Of a stretch of DNA of 64,000 nt, positions 11,327 through 45,806 are shown in pieces. The translations under genes were made by a program, and so were the position numbers. The notes beneath the pieces were generated by a model, which worked only from the letters and a program-made list of their open reading frames with translations, was not told the origin of the DNA and made no database searches. Origin of the DNA: Microbacterium sulfonylureivorans (lineage in GTDB: Bacteria > Actinomycetota > Actinomycetes > Actinomycetales > Microbacteriaceae); the NCBI RefSeq assembly GCF_003999995.1, contig NZ_RJAD01000001.1:434001-498000 (forward strand), written 5' to 3'. Positions within the stretch are counted from its first letter, which is position 1. Each line of letters starts with the position of its first letter.

Positions 11327-12763
11327 ATGCCGCCTACGCCGTTGGAACTGTCCACGCTCGGACACCGCATCCGTCACCAGCGCATCTCGCACGGGTACAC
11401 GCTGGACGAGCTCGGCGAGCTGGTCGGGGTCGCAGGCAGCCAGCTGAGCCTCATCGAGAACGGCAAGCGCGAGCCGAAGCTGTCGCTGCTGCAGGCGATC
11501 GCCACCGCCACGGGAGTCGAGGTCGCCCACCTCCTGTCGGCCGAGCCCCCGAACCGGCGCGCGGCGCTCGAGATCGAGCTCGAGCGCGCCCAGGCGAGCT
11601 CGGTTTTCCGCCAGCTCGGGATCGCGCCCGTCAAGGTCACGAAGGGGATGGCCGACGACACCCTCGAGTCGATCCTGGGTCTGCACCGCGAACTCCAGCG
11701 CCGCGAGCGCGAGGCGATCGCCACACCGGAGGAGGCGCGGCGCGCCAACACCGAGCTGCGGCTGAAGATGCGCGCGCTCGACAACTACCTGCCCGACATC
11801 GAGCGACTCGCCGAGAAGCAGCTCAAGGCCGCCGGCCACGTGTCAGGAGCGCTCACGCACCGCACCGTGAGCATCATGGCGGAGCGGCTCGGCTTCGAGC
11901 TGATCTACGTGAGCGACCTCCCCCATTCGGCCCGCTCGGTCACCGACCTCGAGAACGGCCGCATCTATCTCCCGCCGGCATCGATCCCCGGCGGTCACGG
12001 CCTCCGGTCGATGGCCCTGCAGGCCATGGCGCACCGCCTGCTCGGGCACAAGCGTCCGACCGACTACGCCGACTTCCTGCAGCAGCGCCTCGAGATCAAC
12101 TACTACGCGGCCTGCTGCCTCATGCCCGAGACCGCGTCGGTGGCGTTCCTCCAGCAGGCGAAGAAGGACCGCAACCTCGCCGTCGAGGATTTCCGCGACG
12201 CGTTCGGCACGACCCACGAGTCGGCCGGCATGCGCCTGACGAACCTTGCGACGCGGCATCTCGGCATCCCGCTGCACTTCCTCCGCGTCGACGGCTCCGG
12301 CGCCATCACCCGCGTCTACGAGAACGACGACCTGCCGCTCCCGATGGACGTCACCGGCGCGGTCGACGGCCAGATCGCGTGCCGCAGATTCTCGGCCCGA
12401 TCGGCGTTCTCGGAGCAGAACCGCACGACCGAGCACTACCAGTACACCGACACCCCGGCGGGCACGTTCTGGTGCTCGACGCAGACCGGCACGACGTCAG
12501 AGGGCGAGTTCTCGATCACGGTCGGAGTGCCCTTCGACGACGCCCGCTGGTTCCGCGGGCGAGAGACCCAGAAGCGCGCGACCTCGACCTGCCCCGACGA
12601 GTCGTGCTGCCGCCGGGCCCCGTCCGAGGTGACGGCACGGTGGTCGGGCAAGGCGTGGCCGAGCGCGCGCGTGCACATGCAGATGTTCTCGCCGCTCCCC
12701 CGCGGCGCGTTCCCGGGGGTCGACGACAACGAGGTGTACGCGTTCCTCGACCGCCACGCCTGA
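11327..12763 (+). CDS. RamB-like XRE family regulator next to pckG
   Basis: This 478-residue regulator has an N-terminal Cro/C1 helix-turn-helix (about 10-65, with LDELGELVGVAGSQLSLIE and NGKREPK), a middle domain of the IrrE/peptidase-like type (about 150-330), and a C-terminal cysteine-containing domain (CPDESCCRRAP). This is the RamB layout of short-chain fatty-acyl responsive regulators. The ATG at 11327 has a TATCCT -10 (11315-11320) ending 6 bases upstream, so it is probably leaderless. A paralogue with the same architecture lies at 44328-45806 beside the glyoxylate-bypass genes. It is divergent from pckG, its most likely target. Confidence 0.9.
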   Translation: MPPTPLELSTLGHRIRHQRISHGYTLDELGELVGVAGSQLSLIENGKREPKLSLLQAIATATGVEVAHLLSAEPPNRRAALEIELERAQASSVFRQLGIAPVKVTKGMADDTLESILGLHRELQRREREAIATPEEARRANTELRLKMRALDNYLPDIERLAEKQLKAAGHVSGALTHRTVSIMAERLGFELIYVSDLPHSARSVTDLENGRIYLPPASIPGGHGLRSMALQAMAHRLLGHKRPTDYADFLQQRLEINYYAACCLMPETASVAFLQQAKKDRNLAVEDFRDAFGTTHESAGMRLTNLATRHLGIPLHFLRVDGSGAITRVYENDDLPLPMDVTGAVDGQIACRRFSARSAFSEQNRTTEHYQYTDTPAGTFWCSTQTGTTSEGEFSITVGVPFDDARWFRGRETQKRATSTCPDESCCRRAPSEVTARWSGKAWPSARVHMQMFSPLPRGAFPGVDDNEVYAFLDRHA

Positions 12764-12836
12764 GAACGGACGCGGGATGCCTCGGCCAGGCGGGTCGCGG
12801 CCGATGCATGTCCTCGCGGCGGCGTAACCTCGGAAG

Positions 12837-37279: not shown

Positions 37280-37330
37280 CATGGTCGAGGCGGTTCCGCG
37301 CGCGGTCGCGCGCCGTCACCGTGGACCATG
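37280..37330 (+). terminator. Hairpin region after the FAD oxidoreductase
   Basis: CATGGTC (37280-37286) pairs with GACCATG (37324-37330), and inside it GCGCGCG (37298-37304) pairs with CGCGCGC (37307-37313). It lies between the oxidase stop and the sugar-importer promoter and probably separates the two transcription units. Confidence 0.45.
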
Positions 37331-37346
37331 AGGCCATTCTCATTCG

Positions 37347-37378
37347 CTAATACCTTTCATGTGTCAGGTTTTTAGGAT
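37347..37378 (+). promoter_or_regulatory. Importer promoter with shared TetR-type operator
   Basis: The 26-bp element 37347-37372 begins CTAATACCTTTCA and ends in AGGTTTT; outer ACCT and AGGT form a dyad around 10 bases. Its reverse complement matches 44205-44230 at 23 of 26 positions. A -10 TAGGAT (37373-37378) abuts it, so a bound repressor would cover the -35/spacer. It controls the importer operon starting at 37468. Confidence 0.72.
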
Positions 37379-37467
37379 ACGGTTCTCACAGGGCGCTTCC
37401 CCGGCGCCCTCACAGCCGAGGCAAGGCCGCCGCGCTGGCGGCGACGACCAATGGAGGCGTCAGACCC

Positions 37468-38766
37468 ATGAATCGAACTCTCACACGCAGAAGCTCCCGC
37501 TGGGCGGCAGCCGGCGCGGTCGCACTCGTCGGCACGCTCGTGCTCGCCGGCTGCGGCCGCACCGACGGCGGCGGATCGGCCGGCCCCGAGGCCGGCGACT
37601 CCGTCGACGACTCCCCCGCCACCGGCACCGTCGACGTCTGGGCGATGGGCAACGAGGGCGAGGTCCTCGGTGAACTCGCCGCGCAGTTCGAGGAGGAGAA
37701 CCCCGACGTCACGATCAACGTCACTGCCGTTCCGTGGGAGAGCGCGCACGACCGCATCGCCACCGCGATCGCGGGCGGCGAGACACCCGACATCTCGATG
37801 CTCGGCACCACGTGGGTCGGCGAGTTCGCCGCCACGGGCGCGTTCGAGCCCACCCCGGAGGGGCTCGTGGACGAGTCCTCCTTCTTCGAGGGCTCGTGGG
37901 ACACCACGATCGTGGACGAGGTCGCGTACGGCGTGCCGTGGTACGTCGACACGCGCGTGCTCTACTACCGCACCGACCTCGCCGAGGCGGCGGGCGTCGA
38001 GCCGCCCGCGACGTGGGACGAGCTGAAGACCTTCACCGAGGGACTGCAGACCGCCGGCGCGAAGTGGGGGCTCTCGCTGCCCCCGGGCGGCTTCGACTCC
38101 TGGCAGAACGTCACGCCGCTGGCATGGCAGCAGGGCGGTGAGATCCTCAACGAAGACGGCACCGAGTTCACCCTCGACAGCCCCGAGTGGCAGGAGGCGT
38201 TCGCGTACTACGCCAGCTTCTTCGAAGAGGGCATCTCCGAGCCCGTCCGCCTCGAGGGCGGCGAGATCGAGCAGAAGTTCATCAACGGCGAGGTGGGCGC
38301 GTTCTACAGCGGTCCGTACCACGTGAGCCTTCTGCTCGACCAGGGCGGCGAGGAATTCGCCGACAAGTTCGGCGTCGCGATGGTCCCCGGCGAGGAGAGC
38401 CGCACGAGCTTCACCGGCGGTGGCAACCTCGCCGTGTTCGAGGACACCGAGAACCGCGACGCCTCGTGGAAGTTCGTGCGCTGGCTGAGCCAGCCCGAGA
38501 CGCAGGTGCAGTGGTACGACATCTCGACCGACCTCCCCTCCGTGCAGTCGGCGTGGGACGACCCGGTGTTCTCCGACGACCCGTACCTCAGCGTCTTCGG
38601 CGAGCAGCTGCAGGACTCGAAGGCACCGCCCGCGATCCCGACCTGGGCACAGGTGTCCGCCGTCATCGACCAGGAGCTCGAAAAGGTCACCCGCGGCGAC
38701 GCGACGGTCGACGAGGCCCTCGAGTCGGTCCAGCAGCAGGCCACATCGATCGGCACCGGCCAGTAG
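37468..38766 (+). CDS. CUT1 sugar ABC importer, substrate-binding lipoprotein
   Basis: This 432-residue extracytoplasmic lipoprotein has a basic, twin-Arg-containing signal with lipobox LAGC (Cys29). The family-1 binding-protein fold is shown by VDVWAMGNEGEVLGELAAQFEEENPDVTINV, TWVGEFAATGAF and the GPYHVSLLL region. Such proteins bind di- and oligosaccharides; the GH1 and PF10091 enzymes of this locus suggest a beta-glucan oligomer. GGAGG lies 10 bases before the ATG. It is first of four plus-strand genes, 115 bases after the operator. Confidence 0.92.
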   Translation: MNRTLTRRSSRWAAAGAVALVGTLVLAGCGRTDGGGSAGPEAGDSVDDSPATGTVDVWAMGNEGEVLGELAAQFEEENPDVTINVTAVPWESAHDRIATAIAGGETPDISMLGTTWVGEFAATGAFEPTPEGLVDESSFFEGSWDTTIVDEVAYGVPWYVDTRVLYYRTDLAEAAGVEPPATWDELKTFTEGLQTAGAKWGLSLPPGGFDSWQNVTPLAWQQGGEILNEDGTEFTLDSPEWQEAFAYYASFFEEGISEPVRLEGGEIEQKFINGEVGAFYSGPYHVSLLLDQGGEEFADKFGVAMVPGEESRTSFTGGGNLAVFEDTENRDASWKFVRWLSQPETQVQWYDISTDLPSVQSAWDDPVFSDDPYLSVFGEQLQDSKAPPAIPTWAQVSAVIDQELEKVTRGDATVDEALESVQQQATSIGTGQ

Positions 38767-38775
38767 GCCCGAGCC

Positions 38776-39696
38776 ATGACCGCCCTTGCGACATCGGTCC
38801 CGCCGCGCGCCCGCGCGTCGCGGCGGGACCGCCGCATGACCCTCACGGCGTGGCTGTTCGCCACCCCGTTCGTGATCCTCTTCGCCGTGTTCATGGCGGG
38901 GCCGATCGTCGCCTCGTTCGCGATGAGCTTCACCGACCTGACCACCCGTGATCTGGAGACGCCGTTCAACGTCGACATCGTCGGATTCGACAACTACATC
39001 CGTCTGTTCCAGGATCCCCGGTTCACCCGATCGCTCATCAACACGTTCACCTTCACGCTCGTGGGCGTGCCGCTGACGATGGCGCTCGCGCTGCTCGTGG
39101 CCCTCGCGCTCGACAAGGGCATCCACCGCTTCCGCACCGTGTACCGCGTCGGGTACTACGCGCCCGTGGTCACCAGCATCGTGGCGATCGCGATCGTCTG
39201 GCGCTTCATCCTCCAGCCCGACGGGCTTCTGAACGGCTTCCTGGCCTGGTTCGGCATCCAGGGTCCCAACTGGCTCGAGTCGACGACGTGGGCCCTCCCG
39301 TCGCTCATCATGATGGCGGTGTGGCGCAACATCGGCACCCTGATGGTCATCTTCCTCGCGGGTCTGCAGAGCGTGCCGCGCGAGCACCACGAGGCCGCGA
39401 TGGTGGACGGCGCCAACGTCTTCCAGCGCTTCCGCGCGATCACGATTCCGGCACTGCGCCCCACGATCCTGTTCGCCGCGGTCATCACCGGAATCGGGTT
39501 CCTGCAGTTCTTCGAGGAGCCCTACGTCATGACCCAGGGCGGCCCGCTCGACGCGACACTGTCGACGGCGATGTACACCTACGACCAGTTCGGGTTCGGC
39601 AACTACGCCTACGCGTCGGCGGCGAGCTACGTGCTCTTCATCGTGATCGTCGCGCTCGCTCTCATCCAGTTCCGCCTGCTCGGCCGGAAGGACTGA
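38776..39696 (+). CDS. CUT1 sugar ABC importer, permease (MalF-like)
   Basis: This 306-residue permease has six helices. The coupling EAA loop is EAAMVDGANVFQRFRAITIPALRPTI. GPIVASFAMSFTDL and YRVGYYAPVVTSIVAIAIVWRFI are typical of the MalF/UgpA group. It follows the binding-protein gene by 9 bases. No ATPase gene is present in the locus, as in many actinobacterial CUT1 systems that share one MsmK-like ATPase. Confidence 0.94.
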   Translation: MTALATSVPPRARASRRDRRMTLTAWLFATPFVILFAVFMAGPIVASFAMSFTDLTTRDLETPFNVDIVGFDNYIRLFQDPRFTRSLINTFTFTLVGVPLTMALALLVALALDKGIHRFRTVYRVGYYAPVVTSIVAIAIVWRFILQPDGLLNGFLAWFGIQGPNWLESTTWALPSLIMMAVWRNIGTLMVIFLAGLQSVPREHHEAAMVDGANVFQRFRAITIPALRPTILFAAVITGIGFLQFFEEPYVMTQGGPLDATLSTAMYTYDQFGFGNYAYASAASYVLFIVIVALALIQFRLLGRKD

Positions 39697-39697
39697 C

Positions 39698-40597
39698 ATG
39701 TCCACACTCACCCAGGTTCCCGAGGCCCCGGAGGCCTCCGCATTCGTGCCGCAGAAGTCGCGCGGCCGTCGCAGCAGCCTGCGCGGGCGCCCGCGCTGGT
39801 GGCTCTACGTCGTGCTGACCCTCGGCCTGGTCGCGATGGTCATGCCGTTCATCTGGATGATCCTCGGCTCGTTCAAGACGAACGCGGAGATCCGCCAGTA
39901 CCCGACGAACTTCTGGCCGATCGACCCGACGACCGAGAACTACGAGGCGCTGTTCGTCCGACTCGACTTCGCGACGTTCTTCCTCAACAGCATCGTGGTG
40001 GCCGTGTTCGTCACCCTCGGCAACATCGTCTTCTGCTCGATGGTCGGCTACGCCCTGGCGAAGCTGCAGTTCCGCGGCAAGAAGGCGCTGTTCGCCCTGG
40101 TGCTCGGCACTCTCATGGTCCCGGGCGTCGTCACCTTCGTGCCGCTGTTCGTGCTCACCGCGAACCTCGGTCTGGTGAACTCGTACCCCGGCCTCATCCT
40201 GCCCTTCCTCATCACGCCGGTCGGCGTGTTCCTGATGCGGCAGTTCATCATGGGGCTCCCCGACGAGCTCATCGAGGCGGCGCGCATCGACGGAGCCAGC
40301 GAGTGGCGCATCTTCCTGCGCGTCATCATGCCGCTGTGCGGCCCGGCTATCGCGACGCTGACGATCCTCACGTTCCTCGGCAGCTGGAACAACTTCCTGT
40401 GGCCGCTCGTCGTGGCCACGACCGAGAACATGTACACCCTGCCGGTGGCGCTCGCGCTGTACTCGGTGGGCCAGAACGCGGCGCAGTACGGCCTCATGAT
40501 GGCGGGCGCCGTCGTCGTGGTCGTGCCGGTGCTGGTGGTGTTCGTCTGCCTGCAGCGCTACTTCGTCCAGGGCATCTCCCTGACGGGAATCAAGTGA
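39698..40597 (+). CDS. CUT1 sugar ABC importer, permease (MalG-like)
   Basis: This 299-residue permease pairs with the preceding one. MVMPFIWMILGSFKTNAEI opens the membrane domain, and the coupling loop is EAARIDGASEWRIFLRVIMPLCGPAI. The C-terminus RYFVQGISLTGIK is the usual MalG/UgpE ending. Its ATG lies only one base after the previous stop, so the two are coupled. Confidence 0.95.
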   Translation: MSTLTQVPEAPEASAFVPQKSRGRRSSLRGRPRWWLYVVLTLGLVAMVMPFIWMILGSFKTNAEIRQYPTNFWPIDPTTENYEALFVRLDFATFFLNSIVVAVFVTLGNIVFCSMVGYALAKLQFRGKKALFALVLGTLMVPGVVTFVPLFVLTANLGLVNSYPGLILPFLITPVGVFLMRQFIMGLPDELIEAARIDGASEWRIFLRVIMPLCGPAIATLTILTFLGSWNNFLWPLVVATTENMYTLPVALALYSVGQNAAQYGLMMAGAVVVVVPVLVVFVCLQRYFVQGISLTGIK

Positions 40598-40602
40598 CCC
40601 GG

Positions 40603-40622
40603 GCGGATGCCGAGGCATCCGC
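40603..40622 (+). other. Short hairpin between permease and GH1 gene
   Basis: GCGGATGCC (40603-40611) pairs with GGCATCCGC (40614-40622) across two bases. It lies 5 bases after the permease stop, inside the operon, and is another example of the GGATGCC motif. It may reduce readthrough into the glycosidase gene or stabilise the importer mRNA. Confidence 0.5.
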
Positions 40623-40650
40623 TCTCCTCAACGAAAGGACCATCCGCACG

Positions 40651-41811
40651 ATGGACTTCCCCGAAGGCTTCCTGTGGGGCGCGTCGACCGCGGCGCACCA
40701 GATCGAGGGCGGCAACGTCAACTCGGACTGGTGGCAGCGCGAGTGGGGTCATCTCCCCGGCGCCCCCGTCGAGTCACCGTCCGGCGACGCGGCCGACAGC
40801 TACCACCGCTATCCGGAGGACATGGCGCTGCTCGCCGGGGCCGGCCTCGACACGTACCGGTTCAGCATCGAGTGGGCCCGGATCGAGCCGGAGGACGGCT
40901 GGATCTCGCGAGCCGCCATCGACCACTACCGGCGCATGGTGGCGACCGCGCAGGATCTCGGTCTTCGCCCGATGATCACGCTCCATCACTTCACGAATCC
41001 GGTCTGGTTCGCCCGCGAAGGCGGCTGGCACTCGGATGCCGCGGCCACCCGCTTCGCGCGGTACGTCGAGGCGGCGCAGCCCGTGCTCGACGGCGTCGAT
41101 CTGGTGTGCACGATCAACGAGCCGAACATGGTGTCGGTGCTCGCCGATCCCGAGGTCGGATTCCCGTCGATCGGGCTGCCGCCCGGCGTGCCCGAGGTCA
41201 CCGACCGCCTCGTCGACGCGCACAAGCGCGCGGTGGAGATCGTCCGCGGCACCGGCGCTCAGGCGGGATGGTCGGTGGCGACGCAGGCCTACCAGCCGGT
41301 CGCCGGCGCCGAGGAGATCGCCGCCGAGTACGGCCGCTCTCGCGAGGACGACTTCCTCGACGCGGCGCAGGGCGACGACTGGGTGGGCGTGCAGGCCTAC
41401 ACGCGCACACGCATCGGACCGGACGGTCCGCTGCCCATCGCAGACGATGCCGAGCGCACCCTCACCGGCTGGGAGTACTTCCCGCCCGCGGTCGGCGACG
41501 GCATCCGCAACGCGTGGGCTCGCGCCGCGGTGCCCGTCTACGTGACGGAGAACGGCATGGCGACCGCCGACGACGCGCGCCGCATCGACTACACCCGCGG
41601 CGCGCTCGAGGCTGTGCGCGCGTGCATCGACGACGGCGTGGACGTACGCGGCTACCTCCACTGGAGCGCCCTCGACAACTACGAGTGGGGCAGCTACCGG
41701 CCCACGTTCGGGCTCATCGCCTGGGACCGCGAGACCTTCGAGCGCCACCCCAAGCCCAGCCTCACGTGGCTCGGCGAGGTCGCGCGCGCGAACGCCCTCC
41801 TCGAGCGCTGA
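40651..41811 (+). CDS. Glycoside hydrolase family 1 beta-glycosidase
   Basis: This 386-residue TIM-barrel enzyme should cleave beta-linked glucosides, or possibly 6-phospho-glucosides, inside the cell. FPEGFLWGASTAAHQIEGG is the GH1 N-terminal signature. The acid/base Glu is E157 in TINEPN and the nucleophile E300 in YVTENGM. It is shorter than typical GH1 enzymes (about 450), losing loop regions rather than motifs. No signal peptide. As the fourth gene of the importer operon it would hydrolyse the imported oligosaccharide. Confidence 0.93.
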   Translation: MDFPEGFLWGASTAAHQIEGGNVNSDWWQREWGHLPGAPVESPSGDAADSYHRYPEDMALLAGAGLDTYRFSIEWARIEPEDGWISRAAIDHYRRMVATAQDLGLRPMITLHHFTNPVWFAREGGWHSDAAATRFARYVEAAQPVLDGVDLVCTINEPNMVSVLADPEVGFPSIGLPPGVPEVTDRLVDAHKRAVEIVRGTGAQAGWSVATQAYQPVAGAEEIAAEYGRSREDDFLDAAQGDDWVGVQAYTRTRIGPDGPLPIADDAERTLTGWEYFPPAVGDGIRNAWARAAVPVYVTENGMATADDARRIDYTRGALEAVRACIDDGVDVRGYLHWSALDNYEWGSYRPTFGLIAWDRETFERHPKPSLTWLGEVARANALLER

Positions 41812-41839
41812 GCCGCGCGGGCCCTCTACCCCGAGCGCA

Positions 41840-41886
41840 CACACGGCTTGAGCGGGCGCACGTGACTGCGCCGCTCGAGCCGTGTG
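41840..41886. terminator. Bidirectional terminator between GH1 and TetR genes
   Basis: Arms 41840-41855 and 41871-41886 pair over 16 positions with one mismatch and enclose a 15-base loop. The element lies between the convergent glycosidase and TetR genes. Confidence 0.78.
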
Positions 41887-41953
41887 CCGCCGGCGAAGGG
41901 ATGTGCTCTCGCGGGCAGAGGGCTGGACGGCGCAGGGCCGCCGGCAGGACGGG

Positions 41954-42607
41954 TCAGGTTGCGGGAGGCAGAAGGTAGCCGCGCACGAACTCGGCGAACA
42001 GCGCGTTCATGTCGACGCTGTCGTCGAGGAGCCACTGCTGCTGGATGCCGTCCATCACCGCGCTGATGAGGCGTGCGGCGAGCGCGGGGTCGATGTCGGA
42101 TCGCACCTCGCCGTCGGCCTGCGCCGCGACGAGGATCGGCGTCGAGCGCTCGGCGCTCTCGCGGTACCGGCGCGAGAACTCGTCGTGGGCGGGATGCTCG
42201 GAGTCCGTCGCCTCCGCGGAGACCGTCGCGTACAGCGAGGTGAGGCCGCGGGAGTCCTGGTTGTACGCCACGACCTTGACCGCCTGCTGGATGAGCGTGT
42301 GCTCGGAGGGATCGCCCGCGGCAGCCCGGATCTTCTCGTCACGCTGGCGGAGCACCTCGGTGAAGAGCTCCTCCTTGTTGGCGAAGTGGTGCATGAGGCC
42401 GGTCGGGGTGAGGCCGACGCGCTTCGCGATCTCGCGCAGCGATCCGCTGTGGAAGCCGCTCCGGCCGAACACGACCAGCGCCTCGTCGACGATCTGCTGC
42501 CGGCGGGCCAGGCCCTTGGCGTAGCTGCCCCGCGGGGCGCGCACGGCGCGGACCGGGGCATCCGAATCGGGTGTCCCGGTCGCGTTCTCGGAGGCTTCGC
42601 TGCTCAC
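41954..42607 (-). CDS. TetR family regulator of the glycan locus
   Basis: This repressor of 217 residues has its helix-turn-helix near residues 45-70 (GSLREIAKRVGLTPTGLMHHFANKEELF) after a flexible N-terminus rich in Ser and Ala. The C-terminal domain matches a sugar- or drug-responsive TetR in length. The GTG at 42607 overlaps the stop of the upstream hydrolase gene (GTGA), so the two are coupled; an ATG at 42622 would add five residues. It sits between two operons that carry the same 26-bp element (37347-37372 and 44205-44230) and is the natural candidate to bind both. Confidence 0.87.
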   Translation of the reverse strand: MSSEASENATGTPDSDAPVRAVRAPRGSYAKGLARRQQIVDEALVVFGRSGFHSGSLREIAKRVGLTPTGLMHHFANKEELFTEVLRQRDEKIRAAAGDPSEHTLIQQAVKVVAYNQDSRGLTSLYATVSAEATDSEHPAHDEFSRRYRESAERSTPILVAAQADGEVRSDIDPALAARLISAVMDGIQQQWLLDDSVDMNALFAEFVRGYLLPPAT

Positions 42608-44154
42608 TCGCGCGCTTTCCATTCGGAGCTGAAGACCTGTGCGGCCATCGCGGGGCGCAGGCGCTTCTCCATCTCCTTGTCGACGAAGTACCGCTTCAGC
42701 GTATCGCCGGTGAGGTCGTTGCCGATCGCGGCCATGATCATCGACTGGTCGAGCGAGAGGTAGCGCTCGGCGACGGTGCCGCTGCCGACCGCGACCGAGT
42801 CGTAGAAGCCGCCGGGGCCGTAAGCGCCCAGGTCGTCCTCGAGATGCGCGAGGTTCGCCATCACGCCCCTGCGATCGTAGGGCAGCGCGAGGAAGGCCGC
42901 GTGCGGGGTCACGACGCCGTCGCCGAACCCCGGATCGGGGGCGGTCCCCTCGGTGCAGCCGGGACGGTCGATGTCGACGTCGGTCTTCTCGTGGTCGGAG
43001 GGGTAGCCGTCGGAGCGCATGCCGGCGAGGTCGACGCCGTATTCGGCGTAGCCGCCGAACGGGTCGCTCGCGGGCGAGAAGCCCCAGGCACCGTAGCCCG
43101 CGTCGACGAGGCCGTGATGCTTCTGGACCGCGACCGTGATGGGGTGGTTCAGACGCCACGACTTCGCGCCCCACTTCGTCTCGGGCACGAGGAGATCGGG
43201 CATGAGGGACTCGAACATGCTGCCGCCCCAGCTGGGCACGAAGCTCATGCCGGCGTAGGTGTAGACGCCTTCCCACACGTCGAAGCCCTGGTAGGTGCGG
43301 GTGGTGCCGGTGGGGAGCTGCTCCTGCCACGCCCAGTCGCAGCCCGGGGGCATCGTGCGGTGTGTTCCGTAGAGCGCGGTCGCGGGGATCTGCCCGTTCG
43401 CGATGCCGAGGTAGGTCGCGATGCGGCTCTCGCTCACGGTCGTGTCGTAGTGGTGGCAGGTGTAGAACGCCTCTTCGCCCGAGCCGTTGTACATGGGGGC
43501 GGCGACGCTGCAGCCGGGAGGCGCGACCTCCCAGAACCCGCCCCGGTTCGTGCCGGCGGGCAGGCCTGGTGCGCCCTCGGGGTTGAAGAACGCGCCGAAG
43601 TCCATCGAGTCGTAGAGCGCGTCGGCCTGCCCGGCGAGGCTCGGCTCCGCCTCGCGGACGATGCGCAGGGATGCCGCGAGCCACCCGTTGTCGACGGTGC
43701 TGAGGAACGGGTGCACGACGTCGCCGGAATCCGGCCAGATCGTCAGCTTCGCCCCCGTGGCCGGGTCGTACCAGTTGTAGTACATGCCGCTGGCGTCATT
43801 GCGCTCGAGCGTCTCGAGGGTGTCGAGCGTCGTCGCCATCCGGTCACGGGCATCGGACTTCGAGATGATGCCGAGGTCGCGTGCTGTGACCGTGGACCAC
43901 AGGTACCCGCCGATGTTCGTCGGGGATGTGTAGTCCGCGGGGGTCGCGAGGTCGCCGGTGATGTTGTCGGACGGGAGGCCGGTGACCGCGTCGGTCATGG
44001 CGTCGAGCGACGCCCAGGTGTCGTGTGCGTAGCGCTCCAGGCTCTCGGTCCCCGGCCTGCCGTCTCCGCCGCCGGCCGCCGTCGCCGGCCCGGCGAAGGC
44101 CAGTCCTGCGGCGACCAGTCCCGCCGCCGCTGCCGTGCTCACCCATCGCTTCAT
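42604..44154 (-). CDS. Secreted glucoamylase-family (PF10091/GH144-like) hydrolase
   Basis: This 516-residue protein has a cleavable signal peptide (MKRWVSTAAAAGL with ATA-A cleavage near residue 27). The body has the alpha/alpha-barrel motifs of the PF10091 glycoamylase-like family: ASGMYYNWYDPATG, VDNGWLAASLRIV, ESLMPDLLVPETKWG, and SLDQSMIMAAIGNDL near the C-terminus. Characterised relatives in GH144 are endo-beta-1,2-glucanases, so it may cut cyclic or linear beta-1,2-glucans outside the cell. GAGGAG precedes the ATG. The leader carries the shared operator. Confidence 0.8.
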   Translation of the reverse strand: MKRWVSTAAAAGLVAAGLAFAGPATAAGGGDGRPGTESLERYAHDTWASLDAMTDAVTGLPSDNITGDLATPADYTSPTNIGGYLWSTVTARDLGIISKSDARDRMATTLDTLETLERNDASGMYYNWYDPATGAKLTIWPDSGDVVHPFLSTVDNGWLAASLRIVREAEPSLAGQADALYDSMDFGAFFNPEGAPGLPAGTNRGGFWEVAPPGCSVAAPMYNGSGEEAFYTCHHYDTTVSESRIATYLGIANGQIPATALYGTHRTMPPGCDWAWQEQLPTGTTRTYQGFDVWEGVYTYAGMSFVPSWGGSMFESLMPDLLVPETKWGAKSWRLNHPITVAVQKHHGLVDAGYGAWGFSPASDPFGGYAEYGVDLAGMRSDGYPSDHEKTDVDIDRPGCTEGTAPDPGFGDGVVTPHAAFLALPYDRRGVMANLAHLEDDLGAYGPGGFYDSVAVGSGTVAERYLSLDQSMIMAAIGNDLTGDTLKRYFVDKEMEKRLRPAMAAQVFSSEWKARE

Positions 44155-44204
44155 CGCGCGCTCCTCATCGAAAGCGGCTCCGTCGGGCGGAACCGTCGGT
44201 CCGC

Positions 44205-44230
44205 AAAACCTAACAGTTGAAAGGTATTAG
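44205..44230 (-). promoter_or_regulatory. Hydrolase promoter with shared TetR-type operator
   Basis: Bases 44205-44230 (AAAACCTAACA then two bases, then TGAAAGGTATTAG) match the reverse complement of 37347-37372 at 23 of 26 positions. A TAGGTT hexamer on the minus strand lies inside it and may be the -10. It is about 50 bases ahead of the secreted hydrolase gene. Confidence 0.72.
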
Positions 44231-44327
44231 GGGAACCCCCGACGTCCGCTCTCTCACACGCCTCTCACACGCCTCTCACCGCGACGAACCCACCCCCTGT
44301 CGCCGAGAGCGGGCCGGCACGGCGGCG

Positions 44328-45806
44328 TCAGCGGGGAGCGTGCGCCTCGAGGAACTCGTAGACGTCTGTCGTGTCCACTCCGGGGAACGCACCGGTCGGC
44401 AGCGTGGCGAGCAGCGTGCGCGGCGTGCGGACGTTCGGCCACGAGTTCTCGCGCCACGACGCCTCCAGCTCAGCGGGCGCCCGCCGGCAGCAGGCCTCGA
44501 CCGAGTGCTTCGAGACGCCCCGGTTCGAGGTGTCGCGACCGAGGAACCAGCGAGTGTCGTCGAATCGCACCCCCACGCTCACCGAGTGCGCACCCTCGCT
44601 CGACTGCTCGACTCGAGCCGTGCACCAGTACGTGCCGTTGCCGGTGTCGGTGTACTGGTAGTACGGGTTGAAGTGGTCGTCGACGTCGAAGACGACGCGC
44701 GAGGTCCACTTGCGGCAGCACATCTGCCCCTCGATCGAGCCGAGACGATCGGTCGGGAAGTTGACGTCGTCGTTCTCGTACGCCTTCGTGATGGTCCCCG
44801 ACTCGTGCACCTTCAGGAAGTGCACCGGGATGCCGAGATGCACGGTCGCCAGATTGGTGAAGCGGTGCGCCGCCGTCTCGTAGGAGACCGAGTAGGCGTC
44901 GCGGAGATCTTCGATCGAGATCGCGCGATCCTTCTTCGCCTCCTGCAGGAACGGCACGACGTGCGCCTCGGGAATGAGCAGAGCCCCGGTGAGGTAGTTG
45001 GTCTCCACCCGCTGGCGGAGGAACTCCGCGTACGAGGTCGGCTCGCGGTGCCCGAGGATGCGGCTCGACAGCGCCTGCAGCACCGCGGTTCGCGGGTCGC
45101 CTTTGGCAGTCAGGCGACTCGACAGGTACAGGCGGCCGTTCTTGATGTCGGCGACACTCCGGGTGGTCTGCGGCAGGTCGGGCACGTAGTGCAGCGTGAA
45201 CCCGAGGTGCGCGGCGATGTCGGACGCCGTCCGCTGCGTCAGCGGACCGCCGGGGTGGTCGACCGCTTCGAGCAGCGCCCGAGCCTGCTCCTCGAGGTCG
45301 GCGAAGTAGTTGCTCTGGGTGCGCATGAGCCGGCGCAGCGCGACGTTGGCGCGGCGGGCCTCCTCGGGCGTCGCCGCTCGCTCGTCGCGCAGCCGCTCGA
45401 TCTCGGACTGCAGCGCCAGCATCGCCTTGAGCGCCTCGCTGGGCACGGTCTTCCCGATCCGGAACGGCGGGATGCCGAGGGCCTGGAACGTCTGCCCGCG
45501 CATCGCCCGCTCGAGAGAGATCTCGAGCGTGGCCCGCTCGTCGAGCGGCTCCGACTCGAGGATCGCGTCGAGCGACGAGCCGAGCGCCCGGGCGATCGCC
45601 TGCAGCAGCGTGAGCTTCGGCTCGCGGCGTCCGTTCTCGATCATCGACAGCTGGCTGGGCGCGCGGTCCACGGCGGAGGCGAGCTCTTCGAGCGTCATGC
45701 CGCGCTCGGTGCGCAGCTGCCGGATGCGGCGGCCGATGGTGAGGGAGTCCACATCCTCATCGTCGGGGACTTCTGCCCGCGGATCGCGGGTGAACGACGT
45801 TGTCAT
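44328..45806 (-). CDS. ramB: RamB-like regulator of the glyoxylate bypass
   Basis: This 492-residue regulator shares the layout of the protein at 11327: Cro/C1 helix-turn-helix (about 25-85, LEELASAVDRAPSQLSMIE, NGRREPKLTLLQAIA), the middle IrrE-like domain, and a C-terminal Cys-rich region (EACCRRAP). RamB in Corynebacterium represses aceA/aceB and its own gene depending on acetate; here it is divergent from aceB across 208 bases, so the role is very likely conserved. GAGAAT lies 6 bases before the ATG and resembles a leaderless -10. Confidence 0.9.
   Translation of the reverse strand: MTTSFTRDPRAEVPDDEDVDSLTIGRRIRQLRTERGMTLEELASAVDRAPSQLSMIENGRREPKLTLLQAIARALGSSLDAILESEPLDERATLEISLERAMRGQTFQALGIPPFRIGKTVPSEALKAMLALQSEIERLRDERAATPEEARRANVALRRLMRTQSNYFADLEEQARALLEAVDHPGGPLTQRTASDIAAHLGFTLHYVPDLPQTTRSVADIKNGRLYLSSRLTAKGDPRTAVLQALSSRILGHREPTSYAEFLRQRVETNYLTGALLIPEAHVVPFLQEAKKDRAISIEDLRDAYSVSYETAAHRFTNLATVHLGIPVHFLKVHESGTITKAYENDDVNFPTDRLGSIEGQMCCRKWTSRVVFDVDDHFNPYYQYTDTGNGTYWCTARVEQSSEGAHSVSVGVRFDDTRWFLGRDTSNRGVSKHSVEACCRRAPAELEASWRENSWPNVRTPRTLLATLPTGAFPGVDTTDVYEFLEAHAPR

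Follow-up and report, generated by a model that had tools for sequence, protein, structure and literature searches.

The closest described system is the cluster SGR_2422-2427 of Streptomyces griseus, published in 2025 for the use of beta-1,2-glucan, which combines an importer carrying a Lin1841-like sugar-binding protein (SBP), a GH1 beta-1,2-glucosidase and a GH193 glucanase (PMC12369401). The main text of that paper mentions no regulator, the words "tetr," "regulator," "operator," "laci" and "transcription" being absent from it. Lin1839-1841 of Listeria innocua, to whose Lin1841 the SBP treated here is also related, serves the uptake of sophorooligosaccharides, but the available portion of the same paper lists a GH94 phosphorylase with it, together with a GH3 beta-glucosidase, and no GH1 enzyme (PMC12369401). 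On the regulatory side, the BgrT proteins are TetR-family beta-glucoside regulators of Bifidobacterium and other lineages which, in the available portion of PMC4746261, lie beside sugar genes and control a local regulon through palindromic sites of 18-22 nt. Their targets there are genes for beta-glucosidase, beta-galactosidase, cellodextrin phosphorylase and MFS or ABC transporters; beta-1,2-glucan genes are not named in that portion. Among the literature matches listed, this paper alone treats TetR proteins acting on glucosides, and none describes a regulator for the use of sophorose or beta-1,2-glucan (subscription papers and supplements lay outside the scope of the search).

In the 64,000-nucleotide stretch of DNA analysed here (the window), similar enzymes are encoded in two convergent operons that, unlike the S. 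griseus cluster as published, have a TetR regulator and a palindrome in common. The operon on the plus strand (37468-41811) encodes the SBP of a CUT1-type ABC importer (37468..38766; PF01547/PF13416 and PDB matches), judged by eye to be a lipoprotein, two importer permeases (38776..39696 and 39698..40597; both PF00528) and a GH1 beta-glucosidase, predicted to be a beta-1,2-glucosidase (40651..41811; PF00232, best PDB match SGR_2426). The operon on the minus strand (44154-41954) begins with a hydrolase of the beta-1,2-glucanase clan (42604..44154; PF10091, PF11329), which has a signal peptide recognised by eye, and its gene shares a 4-base overlap with that of a TetR-family regulator (41954..42607; PF00440), predicted from its clade and from site association to bind both palindromes. 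The inverted repeat between the operons (41840..41886; arms 41840-41855 and 41871-41886, 94% complementary) is perhaps a terminator common to both. An initial annotation had given this gene order, which matches the annotated genes, and had supposed a Gram-positive host; the nearest named relatives are Microbacterium, which are Gram-positive.

We consider it highly probable that the two operons form one regulon serving growth on beta-1,2-glucan in a Microbacterium-like bacterium, a model built at the level of sequence from the gene content and the sites, the degree to which both are conserved, and their joint occurrence in other genomes. The secreted GH193 enzyme would, to judge from close homologues, act outside the cell and cut beta-1,2-glucan, the resulting sophorooligosaccharides would enter through the ABC importer, and the GH1 enzyme, presumably cytoplasmic and acting as its close homologues do, would split these to glucose. 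The TetR protein would bind the 24-bp palindrome before each operon and, probably as a repressor rather than an activator, hold down both, its own gene included; its release would come from an imported sugar, sophorose or a short sophorooligosaccharide being the likeliest.

The 26-bp repeat that drew attention to the locus is present as described: positions 37347-37372 (CTAATACCTTTCATGTGTCAGGTTTT) and the reverse complement of 44205-44230 (CTAATACCTTTCAACTGTTAGGTTTT) are identical at 23 of 26 positions, and both copies have the outer ACCT/AGGT dyads. In form the element is an imperfect palindrome of 24 bp (AAWACCTNNCANNTGNNAGGTWTT). Pattern searches and an upstream alignment define operator-like palindrome 1 (AATACCTTTCATGTGTCAGGTTTT; 37349..37372, plus strand), with its end 95 bases upstream of the SBP start codon, and palindrome 2 (AATACCTTTCAACTGTTAGGTTTT on the minus strand; 44205..44228), which lies 50 bases upstream of the hydrolase start codon. 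With up to three mismatches, ACCTTTCANNNGTNAGGTTTT has two matches in the window, where 100 shuffles gave 0.02 on average. The fuller palindrome, searched with the same tolerance, occurs at three places in the 3.79-Mb genome (no mismatches at the two locus sites, three at the third) and the reversed-pattern control at none. The third place (G000:C1:1510002) precedes a DEAD-box helicase gene, a position kept in genome G737, and was rejected as a member of the regulon.

Palindrome 1 is the most conserved 24-column stretch in a 200-base upstream alignment of seven species, 21 of its 24 columns being invariant. On the hydrolase side of the seven-species alignment, the outer arms of palindrome 2 are largely kept and its interior is variable, and conservation is higher in the leader by the start codon than in the palindrome itself. 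Two-fold symmetry extends over 6-10 of the 12 arm positions across 28 sites, with the outer bases kept and the inner ones varying. A conserved promoter core or some other cis element would also fit the position of the element, 50-95 bases before start codons, and its AT-rich composition within a GC-rich stretch; its symmetry with constant outer and varying inner bases, its three genomic places and its company with TetR argue against this reading, which we regard as very improbable, and for an operator. Promoter scans found no sigma-70-like promoter beside either site, and for this reason the way in which binding would block transcription is not visible.

Ten named loci, defined as those holding a TetR relative of 70-90% identity, were compared. 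In six, each of the two operons is preceded by a site, with one mismatch in the hydrolase-side copy of L010 and of L012; three have a single site, with 1 (L014), 2 (L016) and 0 (L017) mismatches to the 18-base core ACCTNNCANNTGNNAGGT inside the 24-bp palindrome; and L018 ends at a contig edge. Agromyces subbeticus has a single site between divergent TetR and importer genes, and a hydrolase was not found there at E 1e-30. Twelve genomes with a close TetR hold 21 places, of which 18 precede TetR, importer, GH1 or hydrolase genes and three lie elsewhere, the control giving none in any of the 12; omitting the four genomes that supplied the pattern leaves 11 of 12 places, in eight genomes, at these genes. 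Six genomes have the hydrolase unlinked to TetR; in five of these a site precedes it even so, 40 to 191 bases away from the edge of the match. Among 398 genomes of the family, sites with at most one mismatch occur in 4 of 10 that have a TetR of at least 54% identity and in 3 of 388 that do not (Fisher p 7e-6); without the pattern-defining G000 and G280 the figures are 2 of 8 and 3 of 388 (p 0.003).

The TetR tree contains a clade of 20 rows (support 100/99), for 18 of which, representing 17 genomes because L014 and L048 are the same genome, a site was seen. The exceptions are G021 (L051), with no site, and L018 at its contig end; the branch on which L196 joins is long. The site counted for L053 (G048) belongs to the unlinked hydrolase, the TetR-side site lying beyond the three-mismatch limit, and in G222, G118 and G173 the recognition-helix region is altered and the TetR-side sites have 2-3 mismatches. 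G021 possesses a TetR of 67% identity and a hydrolase, with no site at up to three mismatches and no GH1 or importer gene beside the TetR, which adjoins a GH3 gene. The expectation that the element accompanies this TetR in related genomes is therefore borne out over the clade, unlinked hydrolase genes included, and fails in G021. Control of both operons by TetR is likely on this comparative evidence. A search of plasmids for the TetR returned 295 records, all below 60% identity. A match to the SBP (E 1e-60) is missing in six of the 12 genomes (G021, G048, G118, G173, G222 and G258), which means that the regulon is not kept whole and that sugar uptake there is unexplained; no alternative sugar importer was found in the one locus examined among the SBP-less genomes.

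Binding of the palindrome by another regulator was also considered, namely a distant LacI protein or a RamB-like HTH protein whose gene (44328-45806) adjoins site 2. The RamB-like gene is present in eight of the ten named loci, though about 6 kb from the hydrolase in L017, and LacI genes occur in three of four other complete SBP-permease-GH1 clusters examined. However, a RamB-like match (E 1e-8) is absent from the 14-18 kb around TetR-side or hydrolase-side sites in G280, G111, G058, G222, G118, G173 and G048, all of which still hold sites and TetR, and the occurrence of sites without the gene disfavours its product as the binder. LacI operators are centred on CG, and the sites are unlike them. 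We hold either protein to be quite an improbable binder and retain TetR.

The hydrolase and P0263, a protein of 751 aa with a second Met at 28 and with D187 and E273, share 64% identity over 477 aa. SkSGL, as printed, has 751 or 724 aa, an offset of 27, D160 and E246; since length, second Met and residue positions fit, we treat P0263 as SkSGL itself or a close copy of it, SkSGL by name being absent from the results of two homologue searches. It is via P0263 that the hydrolase shows the close sequence relation to SkSGL expected of GH193. Residues E242 and D155, invariant in 27 aligned sequences, align with the general acid E246 and the candidate base D160. The initial annotation had called the enzyme GH144-like, and fold matches do place it in the GH144 fold group with the endo-beta-1,2-glucanases CpSGL and XcSGL, which PF10091 also matches. 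CpSGL is nevertheless a weak sequence match (E 1e-4, against 3e-20 for a GH189 domain), and 64% identity to a protein fitting SkSGL makes GH193 the better placement; GH144 was rejected, and the enzyme is most likely a GH193 endo-beta-1,2-glucanase, for which inverting hydrolysis confined to beta-1,2-glucan would be expected. Membership of GH189, the cyclising domain of cyclic glucan synthase (CGS), was rejected as well, since the motif of the nucleophile is not conserved: P361 of the hydrolase, in WGFSPA, is aligned with the Glu of WGISEA in CGS, a residue that we read as nucleophile E1442 of TiCGS, and 156 hydrolase homologues have P (138) or T (1) at this position, the motif being unreadable in 17. 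Unnamed putative glucoamylases match the hydrolase down to 5e-7.

The GH1 enzyme shares 227 of 379 aligned residues (60%) with the beta-1,2-glucosidase SGR_2426, and its E157, M160, Q212, W274 and E300 match E168, M171, Q229, W291 and E318, so that the acid/base, the nucleophile and the subsite +1 residues (M171, Q229, W291) are all kept. Residues M160, Q212 and W274 are retained in 21 of 21 rows of at least 67% identity, from 14 genomes; in rows below 67%, M frequently gives way to I, and in one row L stands in place of Q. Among PDB matches to the SBP the best is 3uor and the second-best Lin1841, which binds sophorooligosaccharides (PMC12369401). The hydrolase and GH1 enzyme, with weaker support from the importer, point to beta-1,2-glucan as the most likely substrate, in agreement with the earlier proposal of a beta-glucan, possibly beta-1,2-glucan, utilisation system. 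TetR might bind the sites and yet answer to some other beta-glucoside or a plant sophoroside: GH3 is a flanking gene of eight of ten TetR relatives tested at 34-49% identity, the S. griseus authors allow alkylated sophorooligosaccharides (PMC12369401), and G280 has the importer and GH1 and no hydrolase match. We think this unlikely, as the hydrolase has the same site and is 64% identical to a protein whose features fit those of a characterised beta-1,2-glucanase, and the GH1 specificity residues are conserved.

The enzymes and the type of regulator are of known kinds; what looks novel is their pairing with this TetR and palindrome, which was not found in print among the matches listed. The initial annotation knew of no system with this composition, a statement that stands for the TetR/site pairing and falls for the enzymes, nearly the same set being present in S. 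griseus (PMC12369401). Likeness to BgrT, judged by the published description rather than by direct sequence comparison, lies in the TetR family, the adjacent sugar genes and a palindromic site before them, whose 18-base core falls within the BgrT range. We lean, by a little, toward the view that the Microbacteriaceae have a dedicated TetR sensor of sophorose or sophorooligosaccharides, that the module passed from LacI control, as in the comparable clusters found elsewhere, to a BgrT-like TetR clade having a palindrome of its own, and that the site keeps unlinked glucanases in the regulon. If so, beta-1,2-glucan use would gain a named regulator and operator, and the locus would be a case of a conserved pathway changing its regulator. 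According to published abstracts, beta-1,2-glucans play a part in contact with the host in Brucella, Agrobacterium and Xanthomonas. A bacterium with the means to detect such glucans and feed on them therefore bears on the question of who consumes them.

The product of bglX is presumably a GH3 enzyme. The GH3 neighbours of the TetR relatives of 34-49% identity (8 of 10) recall bgrT1/2 and bglX as they appear in the available portion of PMC4746261.

The two operons of the locus converge, with a sugar-binding protein (SBP) gene, two permease genes (37468-40597 together) and a GH1 gene (40651-41811) on the forward strand and the hydrolase (42604-44154) and TetR (41954-42607) genes on the reverse, and they meet at an inverted repeat. 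Each outer end of the pair bears one copy of a common 24-bp imperfect palindrome, operator 1 (37349-37372, forward strand) and operator 2 (44205-44228, reverse strand). The initial annotation had placed a shared element at 37347-37372 and 44205-44230, and the window sequence bears out these coordinates exactly. Among named organisms, those closest to the window are Microbacterium. At up to three mismatches the palindrome occurs at three places in the organism's own genome, and the reversed pattern used as control at none. Directly ahead of operator 1 lies a second palindrome, ATGAGGCCATTCTCAT (37328-37343), whose arms are retained in six of seven aligned upstream regions. It has a single exact match in the genome, with three more places at one mismatch, and is possibly the site of a second regulator. 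Upstream of operator 2, direct repeats of GTGAGAG (44251-44279) are in part retained in relatives.

Both the TetR and the palindrome were sought in 398 Microbacteriaceae genomes. A TetR of at least 54% identity is present in 10 of these, and a site with no more than one mismatch was found in 4 of the 10 versus 3 of the 388 others (Fisher p = 7e-6). Two of the four positive genomes, the organism's own (G000) and G280, contributed to the definition of the pattern; without them the counts are 2/8 versus 3/388 (p = 0.003). A stronger test is offered by genomes in which the genes are rearranged. In 12 genomes with a close TetR, the palindrome at up to three mismatches was found at 21 places in 11 genomes (control, 0), 18 of which precede TetR, importer, GH1 or hydrolase genes. 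The remaining three, one each in G000, G737 and G118, lie away from the locus genes and each has three mismatches. The window, together with loci in four of the 12 genomes (G000, G280, G704 and G737), supplied the pattern; among the eight genomes outside this source, 11 of 12 places are at locus genes. The hydrolase is distant from the TetR in six genomes (G021, G048, G111, G118, G173 and G222). Five of these have a site near the hydrolase, separated by 40-191 bases from the match edge. The exception is G021, where the TetR adjoins a GH3 gene. G021 lacks the site at up to three mismatches. G313, G187 and G010 have a site and no TetR of at least 54% identity, and no homologue of the locus was found in the stretches fetched from them.

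Ten named loci with TetR identities of 70-90% were compared. Both operons are preceded by a site in six of these, a single site is found in L014, L016 and L017, and L018 stops at a contig edge. In alignments of seven upstream regions, the importer-side site is the most conserved stretch, with 21 of 24 columns invariant against a mean of 6.6 for all 24-column stretches; on the hydrolase side the outer arms are largely retained, and conservation is higher in the leader close to the start codon than in the site itself.

Eight of the 398 family genomes, counting the organism's own, have a GH1 of at least 65% identity, and all eight have a TetR of at least 54% identity adjoining the GH1 gene or the importer-GH1 run. 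The gene set is not always whole in genomes with a close TetR: an SBP match (E 1e-60) is present in only 6 of the 12, and was not found in G021, G258 or four genomes of one genus, g49 (G048, G118, G173 and G222). In four g49 loci (L090, L091, L093 and L094) the TetR adjoins GH1, the hydrolase is unlinked and has a site, and there is no SBP match. In the Microbacterium locus L017 (12973-14853), the importer lies in a single run with the hydrolase and TetR, and a GH3 gene comes next; no GH1 match was found in this locus, and GH3 may stand in place of GH1.

The structure model of the hydrolase is middling (pLDDT 75, pTM 0.82, 119 of 516 residues below 50). Among its best 20 PDB matches, 16 are named beta-1,2-glucan enzymes and four are uncharacterised putative glucoamylases. 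In sequence comparison, the closest proteins of known structure are cyclic glucan synthases, and a published tree (PMC12102758, excerpt) places the GH189 domain of these synthases near GH193. No GH193 structure appears in the sequence search or among the best 20 of the fold search. The hydrolase is 64% identical over 477 residues to P0263, a 751-aa protein that agrees with the printed description of GH193 SkSGL in length, second Met, and D and E positions (same excerpt). Assignment to GH189 was rejected, the nucleophile motif not being retained by comparison with the TiCGS residues in an excerpt of PMC10834661.

The GH1 protein is 60% identical to SGR_2426 of Streptomyces griseus, which is reported to be specific, among glucooligosaccharides, for the beta-1,2 linkage (PMC12369401, excerpt). 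The catalytic residues and M171, Q229 and W291 of subsite +1 are retained; N228, not conserved according to that excerpt, is replaced by T. The nearest SBP relatives are 3uor, then Lin1841.

In the tree, the TetR clade is well set apart from its paralogues (support 100/99), and among PDB entries the TetR matches the UidR regulator best. Eight of ten TetR relatives of 34-49% identity, those with a large neighbouring gene scanned, lie beside a GH3 gene, reminiscent of the BgrT regulators as described in part of PMC4746261. In L057, a 48% paralogue adjoins a cytochrome bd oxidase gene, not a sugar gene. Both the pathway and the type of regulator are already known; the combination of pathway, TetR and operator was not found in the literature searched. 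Binding by the TetR, repression and the inducer are predictions.

Twenty stretches fetched by GH1 were scanned for SBP, permeases and GH1. Six contain the SBP, both permeases and GH1, and the other 14 have GH1 and no SBP match. Two of the six, L198 and L199, are close relatives carrying the window-type TetR and both sites; GH1 identity is 54-65% in the other four (L187, L195, L196 and L200). A LacI gene adjoins the SBP gene in L187, L195 and L200, which suggests, in a small sample, LacI control in three of four non-orthologous clusters. The L196 importer-GH1 cluster has a 42% TetR and a distinct intergenic palindrome, AACTTAGCAACTGCTTGCTTAGTT (12757-12780). A three-mismatch copy of the window palindrome stands at the same position in two species (L201, near 5003; L202, near 5180), before a DEAD-box helicase gene.
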